Assembly (NCBI GenBank): GCA_030530875.1
Contig: JAUMUD010000001.1
Coordinates: forward strand, 84,286-148,285
Direction: 5' to 3'
Length of the DNA: 64,000 nt
DNA from: Corynebacterium sp.
GTDB taxonomy: Bacteria > Actinomycetota > Actinomycetes > Mycobacteriales > Mycobacteriaceae
The position numbers and the translations under genes were made by a program. A model generated the notes under the pieces. The model ran no database searches. It saw only the letters and a list, made by a program, of their open reading frames with translations, and was not told the DNA's origin. Positions 18,717-63,744 of the stretch are shown piece after piece (the first letter of the stretch is position 1; the number at the start of each line of letters is the position of its first letter).

Positions 18717-19535
18717 ATGCTTAATAATGAGCTCTTGGGCAAGTTTCTTCGTAAGCGTCGTGAGCGTCTTCGCCCTGAAGATGTGGGCCTACCAGGCTCC
18801 TCACGTCGCCGTGTGGCAGGCCTGCGCCGCGAGGAGGTCGCTATGCTTGCTGGCCTGAGTGTGGATTATTATGGCCAGATTGAGCGCGGTGAAACAGCAA
18901 TGATTTCACCGGAGATCCTCACTACGCTGGGCAAAGCCCTACGCCTCAACCCGGAGGAGACTCTTTATCTGCGCAAAATTTCCGCCCCGGATTTCTTTGC
19001 CCATGAGTCTTTTGAAACTGAGCCGGAGCCCATCCGCCCAAGCCTCCAAGCGGTCCTTGATGCTTCTACCCTCCCTACCCGAATCCGTGATTATTGCATC
19101 ACCGAAGTGGGTTCGAATCGTGCCGCCAGGGCTCTTTACCAGCCACTTTTTGAAAATCCTATCGCCAAAAACAATATGGCGCTCTTTACTTTCCTCTGCC
19201 CGGAGGCCAAGGACTTTTTCCTCGATTGGGATGTAATTGCTCGCGGCCTTACTGCGACTTTACGTATGAATTATGCGGTGAGCGATAAAAAATCCGTGAT
19301 CTTTGATTTCGTCAAAAAGCTCAAAGAAGATAGCCCGGAATTTAAGGAGCTCTGGGAGGACCAGGATGTGCTCAATCATTCCAGCGGCTATAAAGATCTA
19401 AATCACCCGGTTTTGGGCCGCATTGAGCTTGATTATGAGGGCATGGCGCTGGCCAGCCCCAGTGATTGGATTATGTACACCTATGTGCCACGACCAGGCT
19501 ATGAGGATAAGGTCGCGGCACTCAATACGCTATAG
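18717..19535 (+). CDS. XRE-family regulator with MmyB-like ligand domain
   Basis: The 272-residue protein has an N-terminal XRE helix-turn-helix (residues about 7-75, RRRVAGLRREEVAMLAGLS, VDYYGQIERGE) and a C-terminal MmyB-like PAS-type domain thought to bind a lipophilic ligand. Members often control an adjacent oxidoreductase or transporter; here the only neighbours are a convergent surface-protein gene and the divergent BI-1 gene. The -10 CATAAT (18705-18710) is 6 nt before the ATG, indicating a leaderless transcript. It overlaps the stop of the surface-protein gene by 6 nt. Confidence 0.87.
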   Translation: MLNNELLGKFLRKRRERLRPEDVGLPGSSRRRVAGLRREEVAMLAGLSVDYYGQIERGETAMISPEILTTLGKALRLNPEETLYLRKISAPDFFAHESFETEPEPIRPSLQAVLDASTLPTRIRDYCITEVGSNRAARALYQPLFENPIAKNNMALFTFLCPEAKDFFLDWDVIARGLTATLRMNYAVSDKKSVIFDFVKKLKEDSPEFKELWEDQDVLNHSSGYKDLNHPVLGRIELDYEGMALASPSDWIMYTYVPRPGYEDKVAALNTL

Positions 19536-21308
19536 GTGCTGGGTGTTTAGGGCATTGGCAATAGTCGCCACAAGCCCACCAAGACCAAGCACAGCAAGCA
19601 AAATCATAATCCAGGTATTTTTCGAGAAACCCTGCTGGGTGCTTGGCTCCTGGCTAGCGCTGGTCGTGGGCTCCTCCTGCTCATAAGGAACCACCGGATC
19701 ACTATAGGCGAAGATTGCATCGAGGCTATCCTGCTGCATGACTTGCGCGAGTTGGTACTGTTTTACCTCATCAGTCCAGCTGCTTTGCTCAATATTGCGC
19801 TCGGCAATGCTGCGGGCAAGATCAATGAGCCCTTCTTTGGTGCTTATCGACGCCACTTGCGCGCGGAACTCTGCCTGATCCTCAGCGCTGAGATTCAACA
19901 GGTGCGTGAGCGCAAGATTAATCCGCGCACGCATATCCTCCACGCTTTCTTCGGTGGAATCAGTAGGCTCCTGGGAATCCGCCTGTGGCGATGTCACTTC
20001 CGCTGGCTTCTGCTCGATGGCGGTGAGCGGATTTACCTTGGCCTCGGCACTAATGCTACTTAGGAGCTCAGAGCCAGTGGTGGCCGCAGTCTTTACTTCA
20101 TTGGCTGCCGTTGTGCCATTTTCACCCATAGCCGTGGTGAGTCCATCGGTGAGCGAAACAGAATCCTGCAGCGCAGTGGAAATTTTCTCCGCACGGGCGG
20201 CACCATCACTGGTAATTGGCGGATTATCCTTGATTTTTTGCATCTCAGTTGCCATGAGTGTGGCAAACTCAGCCATAGCATTTGCTGCCTTATCCGAGGC
20301 CGCTTCTAGCGAGGCCAGCGCGGTGGACAAATCTGAAGGCGAGGCAGCATTGTTAATGGCAGTCTGCGCCTTGCGCGCATCATCCAGCGCACTATCGACA
20401 AGGGAGGCATAGCCGGAGGCCCCAACAATATCCCCAAGGCCCTCACCCTGCAGGGATTCGCGGAGGCGGTCACCCGCCCCATCGAGAGCGGCAATAACCT
20501 GGTTGGCCTTAGCTATACCGGCGGTACGGCTATTATTAAAGGCCGCGTATTCTTCACCCACAGCAAAGCGTGGGGCAGCCGACTTATAGGCATCAGCTTC
20601 AGCGGTCTTGGAAGCCTGGGCAATCAAGCTGGCCGCACGGCCATAGCTACTTGTACCCCAACCGAAGTGATTGCTAAGAGCGGTAGTTACGCCGAGCTGT
20701 TCAATCTGCCCCGAGGTGATGAGCAAAGCCTCAGCGATCTTTAGCTGCAGGTCAGCGGCCGTGGAGTGATTAATCGCATCGCGCATTACGCTGGAGGTCA
20801 GCACAATATCACGGTAATTACCATCAAGAGAGATGGTTGCATCCGCGCTCGCACTTTTAATGCCATTGAGGCTCACGGTCGCGGTCTGGCCGGCACCAAG
20901 ATAGGCCAAGCTTGGGTCATTGGCACTCTTGGCATTGGCATTATCAATGGTGGTTTGTGTAACCTCGCTACCGATGAAGGAAGCTGCCGGGAAGATATTC
21001 TTGGAACCAGTCTTGAGGGAATTAGTCACCACTGTGCCCTGCGGGCTGCCATTCACCCACTGAATATCGCCCGTAATATTTAGGTGGAGATCCACCAGTG
21101 GCACAGGGCCATTATTAGTAAGGACGAAAGTATAGGAGTAGCTCAGGTTCTGGGAATTATAGTAAATATAACCCCTCACCAGTGCAGCATTATCTGATTC
21201 TGCCGCCTGCGTGGTTGGTACGGGCGACAGACCAGTGACAGTAGTACTAATGGCGAGCATTGCTGCAAGGGCCATCTTCCCGCAGAAACTCCTGGAACGG
21301 ACTGCCAT
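19530..21308 (-). CDS. Large secreted, C-terminally membrane-anchored helical surface protein
   Basis: The 592-residue protein is not recognised. It has a signal peptide (cleavage likely after PTTQA), a beta-rich region to about residue 170 (YIYYNSQNLSYSYTFVLTNNGPVPLVDLHL, resembling a DUF11/CARDB-like immunoglobulin fold), a long Ala-rich helical or coiled-coil region (about 190-450), an acidic Ser/Thr/Glu linker, a second helical part (about 460-535) and a C-terminal membrane helix (NTWIMILLAVLGLGGLVATIA). No LPxTG motif is present, so anchoring should be by the helix, as in corynebacterial S-layer proteins. ATG 21308 is chosen because GGGAGAGG lies at proper distance; GTG 21317 is too close to it. 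Confidence 0.75.
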   Translation of the reverse strand: MAVRSRSFCGKMALAAMLAISTTVTGLSPVPTTQAAESDNAALVRGYIYYNSQNLSYSYTFVLTNNGPVPLVDLHLNITGDIQWVNGSPQGTVVTNSLKTGSKNIFPAASFIGSEVTQTTIDNANAKSANDPSLAYLGAGQTATVSLNGIKSASADATISLDGNYRDIVLTSSVMRDAINHSTAADLQLKIAEALLITSGQIEQLGVTTALSNHFGWGTSSYGRAASLIAQASKTAEADAYKSAAPRFAVGEEYAAFNNSRTAGIAKANQVIAALDGAGDRLRESLQGEGLGDIVGASGYASLVDSALDDARKAQTAINNAASPSDLSTALASLEAASDKAANAMAEFATLMATEMQKIKDNPPITSDGAARAEKISTALQDSVSLTDGLTTAMGENGTTAANEVKTAATTGSELLSSISAEAKVNPLTAIEQKPAEVTSPQADSQEPTDSTEESVEDMRARINLALTHLLNLSAEDQAEFRAQVASISTKEGLIDLARSIAERNIEQSSWTDEVKQYQLAQVMQQDSLDAIFAYSDPVVPYEQEEPTTSASQEPSTQQGFSKNTWIMILLAVLGLGGLVATIANALNTQHL

Positions 21309-21350
21309 TGCACTCACCTCTCCCTTTTATATTCCAAGAAATTACCTAAA

Positions 21351-60788: not shown

Positions 60789-61472
60789 ATGGCAGGAAAC
60801 GTAGGACGTCCAAGGAAACAGAGCCCACGACGTCGCGGTAGCACTGCGCGTGAAGAAATTCTGGATGCTTCCGCCGAGCTTTTTACTACCCAAGGTTTTG
60901 CCACGACTTCTACCCACCAGATCGCTGATGCTGTGGGTATCCGTCAGGCATCTCTTTATTATCACTTCCCTTCCAAGACCGAAATCTTCCTGACTCTTCT
61001 GAATTCCACAGTGGAGCCTTCGATAGTCCTGGCACAGGAGCTTGCTAAGTCTGATGCTGATGCAGGCATGAAGCTTTGGGCACTGGTCGCAGCAGAGACC
61101 CGCCATCTTCTGTCTACCCGATGGAATCTTGGACGCCTCTATCAGCTGCCAATGGCTTCTTCTGAGGACTTTGTCGAATTCCACGAAAAGCGTCTGGAAT
61201 TGCGTAACGCATTTATCGACTTGGCAGCAAGTCTCCTTGGTAATAGTGAAGATCATCGCGCTGAGCTTCCTTTCTATATTGCCCAGAGCGTCACTGAGAT
61301 GCGTCCGAACACCGGTCACGTGCCGGAGCCTATTTCGGTAGATGCATTCCCTGATCTCTCCGTAATGCTCGCGGATGCGGCTCTTGCAGTGCTCAATGCT
61401 CCGCTTCCGGAAAACCGTGTTGAGCGCGCTCTTGAACTCATCACAGTCACCACGACTGACGAGTCCGAGTAA
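60789..61472 (+). CDS. amtR: AmtR, TetR-family master regulator of nitrogen control
   Basis: The 227-residue protein carries the TetR domain EEILDASAELFTTQGFATTSTHQIADAVGIRQASLYYHFPSKTEIF, which I recall as nearly identical to C. glutamicum AmtR, including the flanking GRPRKQSPRRRG basic arm. AmtR represses ammonium transport and assimilation genes and is released by adenylylated PII (GlnK). It lies after the DUF294-like gene (18-nt gap) and the ribosomal operon, the C. glutamicum order. No AmtR box was recognised in this window. Confidence 0.92.
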   Translation: MAGNVGRPRKQSPRRRGSTAREEILDASAELFTTQGFATTSTHQIADAVGIRQASLYYHFPSKTEIFLTLLNSTVEPSIVLAQELAKSDADAGMKLWALVAAETRHLLSTRWNLGRLYQLPMASSEDFVEFHEKRLELRNAFIDLAASLLGNSEDHRAELPFYIAQSVTEMRPNTGHVPEPISVDAFPDLSVMLADAALAVLNAPLPENRVERALELITVTTTDESE

Positions 61473-61548: not shown

Positions 61549-61593
61549 AAAAACAAAAAGTGGGGTCTCAGGAACTAATCCTGAGACCCCACT
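61549..61593 (-). terminator. Intrinsic terminator of the large surface-protein gene
   Basis: On the minus strand GTGGGGTCTCAGGA and TCCTGAGACCCCAC pair over 14 bp, followed by TTTTTGTTTTTC. It faces the amtR terminator. Confidence 0.93.
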
Positions 61594-61641: not shown

Positions 61642-63744
61642 TTACTGACCTGCTGGTGGGAAGTTGGAGTAGAACCACCACATTGGTGGATTACCGACCC
61701 AACCTGGGTTGAGCTGGAACCAGTTCACCCAACGAACGCCGACAATCGCAGCAATGATAGCCGGGATGGACAGCAGCCACCAGGAGCTACCGGAAGCCTT
61801 TGGTGCCGTGGAAGGCGCCGCTGGAGTCTCATTGTCGTTGGTGGTTGGAGTCTCGGTGTTGTCGCTTGCAGGGGTCAGCTTAGCAAGTGCGGCCTTATAA
61901 TCAGTAACAGCCTTATCAATTGCGGCCTGATCGGTGCTGGAATCAACCAGTTTGTTCAGCGCATTATAGGCATCGATAACCGCATTCTTGGATTCAGTAG
62001 AAGCGTTCTTGTAGTCATCGGAACTTTGCTGGGATGCAAAGCCATCACGAGCTGTCTTAGCGGCGGCTACAGCAGCGGCGAGGTTGTTAGCCTTGGTCAT
62101 GACGTTAGTGCGGTCACCATCAGTCGTAGCCTTGACGTAATCGGAACGCAAAGATTCAATCTGGGCCTTGCTAAGGCTCAGATCTGCAAGACCGTTCCAC
62201 TGATTCCATTGTGCACCAAGGGTGTTAAGCTGATCTGTCAGACTCTTAACCTTATCCAGATCAGGATTCGTTTCAAGCACAGCTGCCCTGAGATCATCAT
62301 GAGCCTTGCTGTAGGCGTTGCTCAGATCATTGGAGGAGTCGGTGGTGCCACCATAGGTCTTAAGAGCAGTCCTAGCTGCAGAAAGTACTTCATTAGCCTT
62401 GGCAGCATCAGTCAAGGCGGCGGTCTTGGCAGCATTGTCGCCGTTCTTAGCCTTGGTCTTGTATGCTTCAAGCTGAGCAGGGGTCAAGCCATCAAATCCA
62501 CTCTTAGCGAATGCATAATCTACGAGAGCATCGCTGACAGCCTTATTGATGTCGCTGACAGAATTGTTAGTAACGGTGTCAGCAAGTGCAGATGGGTGAT
62601 CGGTTTCCGCGCCCTTTGTCACTGTAGCCAGGAAATTATTAGCACTCGTACGGGTCGAGGCTGCAGCATCAGACTGAGCTGTGACATTGTATTGTCCAAC
62701 GCTCAAATTCAGTGCCTGAGCAACGCCACTCCAGTTGTGAACCGCAGCATCGGAATTAATCTTACCCAGATTATACTGCGCAACGGACTTCGTTGCATCA
62801 TCCAGGTAGGCCTTCTGGAGGGAAGTGACATCGGCACTATCACCGAAATACTTAGTGGCGGTGCCAAAAGCATCAAGATTAGCGAGTTTATTACCATCGA
62901 TGCTGATAGAGTTCGTGGCATCATCGGAAGTCAGATTAGTGAAGGAGATGGCTGCACTAGATGGGCTGTAATAAGAACCATCAGCAAGCTTATAGAAATA
63001 CTTGCCCTGAACATCCTTGTAACCAGCAAGAGTAACTGCATTATTAACTGGAGTATTGTAGTCCGTTGGCTCAGTACCACCATTCTTCCACAGCTTTACC
63101 TTGACCTTGTCAGCGGCGTTATTAAGCAAAGTAACCGTGGCGGTGGCATAAGCATAGTTGCCAGTTGTAGGCAGCGTATAGATTGGCATGCCATTGTCAG
63201 TCTTCTTGTAGACGGTGTTGCCAACCTGGACGCTAAAGTCAGTGCTTGGCACGAAACTTGCGGTGGTGTAGTTAGTATCATTCAAGGTCTGAGTATATAC
63301 GAAAGCTACCTTGGCAACATTCTTCGTATATGTCTTGTCCAGTGTAGCAGCATCAAGTTGCTCGTTGGTGCCATCAGCAAAGGTGACAGTGGTGGCACGA
63401 GTCCAACCAGCGAGATCAACATTGGCCAGCTTAAGGGAAGTGCCCTGGCTATCGGTTGGGACGTTTAGCGTCCAGTCGACCTCAAGAGTATCGCCAATGG
63501 CAAGAATCGTGTGTTGATTATCTTTGATATTAGTGCCCGCATAGGCATAGACAGCCTGAGAGATAGCACTGCCACTGTTGGTAAGTACTTTATTTGGCAC
63601 CAATGAGCCAGCGCCAGCAACTGTGGTGCTGTCAGAATCAGCAGCAAAAGCGAAGTTGTGGGCATTGCCGACAGCGGCGACGCCGGAGAAAGCCACGGCA
63701 GTAGCGGTGACTACTGCGATGGCACTGCGGGAGAATTTCTTCAC
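61642..63744 (-). CDS. Secreted 700-residue surface protein with GA/FIVAR-like helical modules and Trp-rich tail
   Basis: The protein has a signal peptide (residues 1-35, cleavage after NFAFA), a beta-rich N-terminal half (about 40-300) and three helical modules: two GA-like (about 418-452 LTPAQLEAYKTKAKNG and 521-560 LSKAQIESLRSDYVK) and one FIVAR-like (about 574-624). Such modules bind albumin or host and cell-wall partners in other Gram-positives. A Pro/Thr/Asn linker leads to a membrane helix (about 655-670) and an odd 30-residue tail with seven Trp, in GWVGNPPMWWFYSNFPP. No LPxTG is present. Start GTG 63744 follows AAAGG. Family as a whole is unrecognised. Confidence 0.75.
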   Translation of the reverse strand: MKKFSRSAIAVVTATAVAFSGVAAVGNAHNFAFAADSDSTTVAGAGSLVPNKVLTNSGSAISQAVYAYAGTNIKDNQHTILAIGDTLEVDWTLNVPTDSQGTSLKLANVDLAGWTRATTVTFADGTNEQLDAATLDKTYTKNVAKVAFVYTQTLNDTNYTTASFVPSTDFSVQVGNTVYKKTDNGMPIYTLPTTGNYAYATATVTLLNNAADKVKVKLWKNGGTEPTDYNTPVNNAVTLAGYKDVQGKYFYKLADGSYYSPSSAAISFTNLTSDDATNSISIDGNKLANLDAFGTATKYFGDSADVTSLQKAYLDDATKSVAQYNLGKINSDAAVHNWSGVAQALNLSVGQYNVTAQSDAAASTRTSANNFLATVTKGAETDHPSALADTVTNNSVSDINKAVSDALVDYAFAKSGFDGLTPAQLEAYKTKAKNGDNAAKTAALTDAAKANEVLSAARTALKTYGGTTDSSNDLSNAYSKAHDDLRAAVLETNPDLDKVKSLTDQLNTLGAQWNQWNGLADLSLSKAQIESLRSDYVKATTDGDRTNVMTKANNLAAAVAAAKTARDGFASQQSSDDYKNASTESKNAVIDAYNALNKLVDSSTDQAAIDKAVTDYKAALAKLTPASDNTETPTTNDNETPAAPSTAPKASGSSWWLLSIPAIIAAIVGVRWVNWFQLNPGWVGNPPMWWFYSNFPPAGQ

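Follow-up and report, generated by a model that had tools for sequence, protein, structure and literature searches.

Ebh and Embp are giant staphylococcal surface proteins made up of FIVAR and FIVAR-GA repeats. Embp reaches 10,204 amino acids and, in the available part of the published account, both its FIVAR and its FIVAR-GA modules bind fibronectin, with cell aggregation being promoted by FIVAR-GA and not by FIVAR (PMC7403478). A different question is how surface proteins come to be held at the envelope of corynebacteria, and here a 2025 paper on the ZnuF protein, as far as its available text goes, suggested a novel mechanism by which a protein can arrive at the cell wall without sortases (PMC12445094). 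A gene found near one end of a 64,000-nucleotide stretch of Corynebacterium DNA (the window) touches on both subjects. GA/FIVAR repertoires of the kind seen in the giant staphylococcal proteins also occur in a small number of corynebacteria, bacteria with a mycomembrane in their envelope. In addition, for the retention of corynebacterial surface proteins without sortase, a short and strongly constant tail carried by fast-changing proteins provides a concrete candidate element.

The reading frame encodes a 700-residue protein with a membrane helix ahead of its C-terminal tail, as a first-pass annotation of the window had reported; it has a GTG start and a signal peptide (Table 1). Judged by sequence comparison, the frame is a real gene and not a chance frame, because it has two relatives at 41 and 38% identity and because pN is lower than pS across the regions compared (in 18 of 18 region-by-pair rows of the three relatives, and barely so in the helix of two pairs). 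Reading the sequence upstream reveals a Shine-Dalgarno-like GAAAGG 7 bases 5' of the start codon. The terminator-like hairpin listed in Table 1 belongs to a class that is not enriched, with 2 found against a shuffle mean of 2.3.

The protein contains no cysteine and has two hydrophobic segments, at residues 7-26 and about 652-674, with hydropathy values up to 2.08 in 17-residue windows; the core of the C-terminal segment lies before Arg671. Four acidic residues and one Lys are found in the linker that precedes the helix, and one Arg behind it. No known family was found for the N-terminal part in Pfam, NCBIfam and profile searches, and a galactose oxidase match of this part was nonsignificant (E 0.04). 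The helical nature of the Ala-rich part is presumed from its composition. NCBIfam matches to Rad50 and SMC over this part fell far below the cut-offs and were taken as composition effects, as was a Pfam match to a plant virus nucleocapsid family, likewise far below its cut-off.

Table 1. Features of the gene and its surroundings (window coordinates), followed by examples of two other C-terminal types (coordinates within the loci named)
Feature	Position	Strand	Basis
Whole gene, 700 aa, GTG start, stop TAA	61642..63744	-	ORF listing and relatives
Residues 1-35, signal peptide with the first part of the mature protein; identity in the three relatives 59-66%	63640..63744	-	Hydrophobic windows at residues 7-26; regional identity
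Residues 36-290, N-terminal part without a recognised fold; the shorter relative lacks most of it	62875..63639	-	
Residues 291-572, rich in Ala and presumed helical; one of four models gives a weak GA-like stretch at 417-449	62029..62874	-	
FIVAR-like module, residues 573-623	61876..62028	-	Lineage model, hhalign, Pfam match below cut-off
Acidic Pro/Thr/Asn linker, residues 627-654, ends SGSS	61783..61866	-	Sequence
Predicted membrane helix, core about residues 655-670; boundary with tail approximate	61735..61782	-	Hydropathy
Trp/Pro-rich tail, residues 671-700	61645..61734	-	Composition, tail model, relatives
Terminator-like hairpin, 15 pairs, then T run	61559..61593	-	
TetR-family regulator gene, convergent neighbour; marks same locus in relative	60789..61472	+	
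Examples with WGYVHD tail	L041:1575-4898, L126:7004-15670, L129:307-3405		
Examples of (D/N)GDL(P/A)RK type	L117:193-3552, L118:4875-11306, L146:5146-16781		

Of 201 Corynebacterium genomes searched, one besides its own (G000) yielded relatives of the protein, namely G058 (Corynebacterium sp. MAG S11A_Sa_2_sub, contig JAUMTX010000005.1). This genome carries a tandem pair of 698 and 463 amino acids, the shorter without most of the N-terminal part, adjoining the same TetR-family gene as the window gene. The tandem sits between that TetR gene and a gene that we take to be purH. The neighbours found were the TetR-family gene and, in the relative, the purH-like gene, with no specific enzyme or partner among them. 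The place adjoining the TetR gene varies in other genomes, among the matches listed. One genome_contigs search returned a single locus, on the same G058 contig, and another returned none, from a set that possibly excludes the own genome, and searches of viral contigs and of plasmids returned no relatives. When the full-length profile was run against 401 family genomes (a sample for which G058, absent from the matches listed, was probably not drawn), it found the own genome, through the window protein and, in part, through an 872-codon FIVAR frame, and G187, by a marginal match confined to the first 84 residues (E 1.8e-4). In the relative genome, another copy lies upstream of the full-length gene. 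The own contig stops 256 bases upstream of the gene, at the window end, and a second copy in the own genome may have been lost in assembly.

The protein was originally read as carrying both GA- and FIVAR-like modules. One FIVAR-like module is supported by profile comparison, although below the Pfam cut-off, and the GA part of the claim lacks clear support; GA modules do occur elsewhere in the genome. With the whole protein as query, Pfam FIVAR (PF07554) did not match at E<=1, and it is absent from the Pfam listing for the fragment 410-630. On residues 574-630 it scored 15.3 bits (E 0.031), short of the curated cut-off of 29.2 and slightly behind SabA_adhesion on the same piece (E 0.016); the two relatives scored 18.1 and 9.3 bits against the same cut-off. 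Four lineage FIVAR models were then built from frames of G000, G058 and G082, with the window protein and its relatives left out. The seed model F0 missed the window protein and matched its relatives (11.9 and 16.2 bits). Each of the next three rounds matched every one of the three proteins at the corresponding place, so that the window protein scored 19.7-20.8 bits at residues 573-623 in three of the four rounds. The best scores among 600 shuffles were 6.5 bits for a domain (last round) and 9.2 bits for a whole sequence (any round), and the best other frame of the window reached 6.2 bits. By hhalign, three family segments gave 95.1% over 46 columns with the lineage FIVARs and 2.4% with lineage GA. 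The lineage models and hhalign together show a sequence-profile relation to FIVAR modules of the protein's own lineage. A PDB search with a FIVAR profile found 2dgj (E 9e-21), 4kjm, 6gv5 and 6gv8, all of them Ebh/Embp structures; family segments make up three of the eight rows of that profile, and the five clear FIVAR rows drive the result. The whole-family profile touched 6gv5 at a nonsignificant E of 0.6.

Pfam GA (PF01468) had no match in the window protein, and the shorter relative reached 19.1 bits against a cut-off of 24. One of the four lineage GA models gave 15.4 bits at residues 417-449, another gave 7.7 bits (a shuffle gave 7.5), and two gave none. With hhalign, the region of residues about 397-465 gave 48.7% for GA over 19 columns. 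GA modules in the window protein thus have no clear support from Pfam, from the four lineage models or from profile comparison.

Behind the helix core the protein ends in a tail of 30 residues, RWVNWFQLNPGWVGNPPMWWFYSNFPPAGQ, which contains nine aromatic residues, five Pro and one charged residue. The tail had been credited with seven tryptophans; it is indeed Trp-rich, but five Trp (672, 675, 682, 689 and 690) lie after residue 670, and Trp 655 and 656 lie at the start of the membrane helix. The many prolines and the motif GNPPMWWFY had been described correctly. In the three relatives 18 of the 30 tail positions are invariant, and the order NPGWxGxPPxWWxxSNFPP is common to all three proteins despite strong divergence elsewhere. 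With regions set by hand, tail identity in the three pairs was 75, 72 and 68%, versus 38, 32 and 27% in the helical part, and the corresponding dN values were 0.24, 0.20 and 0.20 versus 0.68, 0.87 and 0.93. The signal peptide (dN 0.24-0.29) is the sole other region comparable to the tail in all three pairs. Among overlapping helical-part windows of tail length, those with a pN as low as that of the tail numbered 0 of 317, 0 of 309 and 0 of 317; for pN/pS, which draws on 15-17 synonymous sites per pair in the tail and on high, partly saturated synonymous distances elsewhere, the counts were 0 of 317, 8 of 309 and 0 of 317. The known carriers of the tail are three sequences from two draft genomes. 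They are also precisely the three proteins that have at least three Trp in the last 30 residues among 279 frames of at least 200 amino acids, a set taken from the fetched stretches of G000, G058 and G082 plus the window protein, and in which not all frames are real genes.

Purifying selection is the likeliest reason for the constancy of the tail, as far as these sequence comparisons go. In the pair formed by the window protein and the shorter relative, C-terminal ends may also have been exchanged and so have contributed to the constancy, because in that pair the linker (74%), helix (76%) and tail (72%) are equally constant, the tail pS of 0.36 is below that of all 309 windows, and, when corrected distances are used, dN/dS in the tail (0.20/0.49) is no lower than in the helical part (0.87/3.04). 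Exchange appears less likely as a cause in the other two pairs, because their tail pS lies inside the range of the windows.

A model of the tail found three strong matches in 242 Corynebacterium genomes, a single one in G000 and a pair in G058, with E values from 2e-30 to 7e-27. With the threshold set at E<=0.1, 31 of the 242 genomes had a match, the weak ones having a per-genome E of 0.003 or worse, such as chance may give over 242 genomes. The first-pass annotation had proposed looking for the tail in other secreted proteins, and this search led back to a single place in the own genome at E<=0.1, with no second match. The tail was accordingly rejected as a general sorting signal of the genome. 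Among 150 genomes of the order, three had a match at E<=0.01, the own one included, which alone was strong. The two foreign matches (E 0.003 and 0.009) look spurious; one is in a frame unlike a real protein, and one falls in a membrane protein that presumably resembles PgsC. Among the titles and abstract openings listed by a literature search, none concerned such a Trp-rich tail or GA/FIVAR proteins in Corynebacterium. Beyond its three carriers, then, the tail has no convincing match in the libraries, genomes or literature listings covered. A link had also been drawn to the protein encoded at 19530-21317 of the window (minus strand), and this link is weak. That protein, of 595 amino acids, has a signal-like start and a C-terminal hydrophobic segment without a sortase motif, but its short end is LNTQHL, with no sign of the Trp tail, and it had no Pfam match at E<=0.01.

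Modules of the GA and FIVAR kind had been called unusual in corynebacteria, and the genus-wide counts agree. FIVAR was found over the Pfam cut-off at E<=1e-4 in 3 of 242 Corynebacterium genomes (G000, G058 and G082), and GA at E<=1e-4 in 8 of 242. Three Corynebacterium genomes, the own one included, hold a large GA/FIVAR surface-protein repertoire. In G000 the matches at E<=1e-4 number at least 22 for FIVAR and at least 26 for GA, and the open frames that carry them reach 6146 codons. G000 has several very large genes for surface proteins. The 6146-codon frame is among them (G000:C34, from 38001; FIVAR row G000:C34:46755); it has a Pfam FIVAR match and many lineage GA matches, and it ends in a LARTG-like signal with a long basic end.

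The C-terminal ends of this repertoire were sorted by a simple pattern test, applied to those frames that a lineage FIVAR or GA model matched, 48 in all from the fetched stretches of the three genomes plus the window protein. LAxTG accounted for 16 frames, the WGYVHD tail for 8, the DGDLPRK-helix for 5 and the Trp tail for 3, leaving 16 as other or unclear, which include frames cut by stretch ends or by stretches left out; a 1129-codon frame of G082 was counted as LAxTG but ends in a DGDLPRK-like helix and may be misfiled. Sortase matches numbered one in G000, one in G058 and two in G082. From these sequence patterns, sortase seems to serve one part of the repertoire in this lineage, and other C-terminal ends, the Trp tail among them, the remainder.

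The WGYVHD tail, of which WGYVHDADFRAVVDGAIAN..RALGIRR is typical, is found behind the C-terminal helix on GA-module proteins. At E<=1e-5 it occurs in these three genomes out of 242 (10 matches in G000, 7 in G058 and 4 in G082). FIVAR proteins of about 970-1540 codons with a C-terminal helix after (D/N)GDL(P/A)RK represent a further anchor type, found in G000 and G082. The 872-codon frame of G000 (L042:4500-7118, G000:C1) has FIVAR over the cut-off and a Pro/aromatic end after an SKWWLL-helix, PRWPWLPHLPYPVIP, with no more than partial, weak matches in G058 and G082. One could conjecture, though we think it unlikely, that a small Corynebacterium lineage uses its several conserved tails (Trp, WGYVHD and DGDLPRK-helix, beside LAxTG) as addresses for sorting GA/FIVAR surface proteins, each with its own receptor or membrane, which would make the Trp tail a new signal for retention independent of sortase.

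The C-terminus of the window protein bears no sortase motif, just as the first-pass annotation stated. There is no L[AP]xTG near the C-terminus and no TG in the last 100 residues, and the sole match to the pattern, LPTTG at residue 191, is internal. LPXTG_anchor (TIGR01167) gave no match at E<=1 in the window protein; a sister protein of the own genome exceeds the cut-off of this model. The arrangement of a sortase substrate, L[AP]xTG before a C-terminal helix and a basic end, is thus absent. We consider it somewhat probable that the protein is a modular adhesin like Ebh/Embp, with a sortase-independent C-terminal membrane anchor and a conserved tail that docks to a partner or to a membrane face. 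The signal peptide would export the protein, the C-terminal membrane helix would most likely hold it without sortase, and the helical rod with its FIVAR-like module would be placed next to the envelope. The Trp/Pro tail would act as a functional retention or docking element, probably with a fixed local structure at the membrane face and with a partner bound there. The fast-changing outer part would meet ligands, by analogy with Embp either host matrix or neighbouring cells. Surface exposure, the side of the membrane, docking and ligand are all points that we infer from the features described above. The first-pass proposal for the tail, insertion into the inner face of the membrane or binding to a partner, is possible on the same grounds.

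The position of the helix is the point at which a different arrangement deserves attention. By the positive-inside rule, the charges of the linker and helix flank are in line with an outside-to-inside orientation. On the other hand, a single positive charge is unusual for a cytoplasmic tail, and a protein of 700 residues might scarcely reach through the wall from an inner-membrane anchor. Both points would be met by a PS2-like anchor, with the helix in the mycomembrane (the corynebacterial outer membrane) and the tail on its inner side. In PS2, about 27 residues at the C-terminus do keep the protein in the mycomembrane, but its anchor is the very C-terminus, and the available part of the source mentions no tail of this sort (PMC12337289). 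This placement strikes us as somewhat unlikely.

Docking by the tail can also be questioned, as no obvious partner gene adjoins in both genomes. The aromatic tail might simply be an interfacial belt that stabilises a short helix, with no partner and no specific fold. Trp has an established preference for the interface, and a belt would suit a tail with so many aromatics and prolines and one charge, behind hydrophobic windows that extend into its first residues. However, in the three proteins Asn, Pro, Gly, Trp and Ser follow one another in exactly the same order, beyond what an amphiphilic belt should need, which argues for a fixed local structure or a partner instead; and in the own genome the tail model matches this one protein and no other at E<=0.1. 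A mere belt is therefore quite unlikely. The conserved SGSS, the helix and the conserved end that follows would also fit a sorting signal cut by some enzyme in the manner of exosortase-type systems, and C. diphtheriae ZnuF, according to the available text, is in the cell wall with none of six sortases required (PMC12445094). Most of the conservation, however, lies behind the helix and not before it. Furthermore, dedicated sorting systems usually serve many proteins, whereas the carriers here are just one protein in G000 and two in G058, and we hold cleavage of this kind to be highly improbable.

The preferred reading, a modular adhesin held by its C-terminal helix and docked by its tail, has parallels in several described systems and differs from each. 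The window protein resembles Ebh and Embp in its FIVAR-like module, but it has one module and not dozens, 700 residues and not the length of Embp, no sortase signal, and the Trp tail. PS2 (CspB), the S-layer protein of C. glutamicum, is likewise secreted and held by a C-terminal hydrophobic end in the part of the source drawn on (PMC12337289); the window protein differs in its long conserved tail after the helix and its FIVAR-like module. ZnuF is also a surface protein with a C-terminal helix and no sortase motif, but its end is positively charged, the protein binds zinc, and the available text describes no Trp tail (PMC12445094). The nearest parallels within the own genome are the WGYVHD proteins, which have an SGSS-like stretch, often aromatics, a helix and a conserved tail of about 30 residues; the Trp tail differs from theirs in sequence, and theirs recurs at 10 places in this genome. 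On this comparison the general type, a surface protein of FIVAR-like modular build anchored C-terminally without sortase, would be known, and what appears to be new is the Trp tail.
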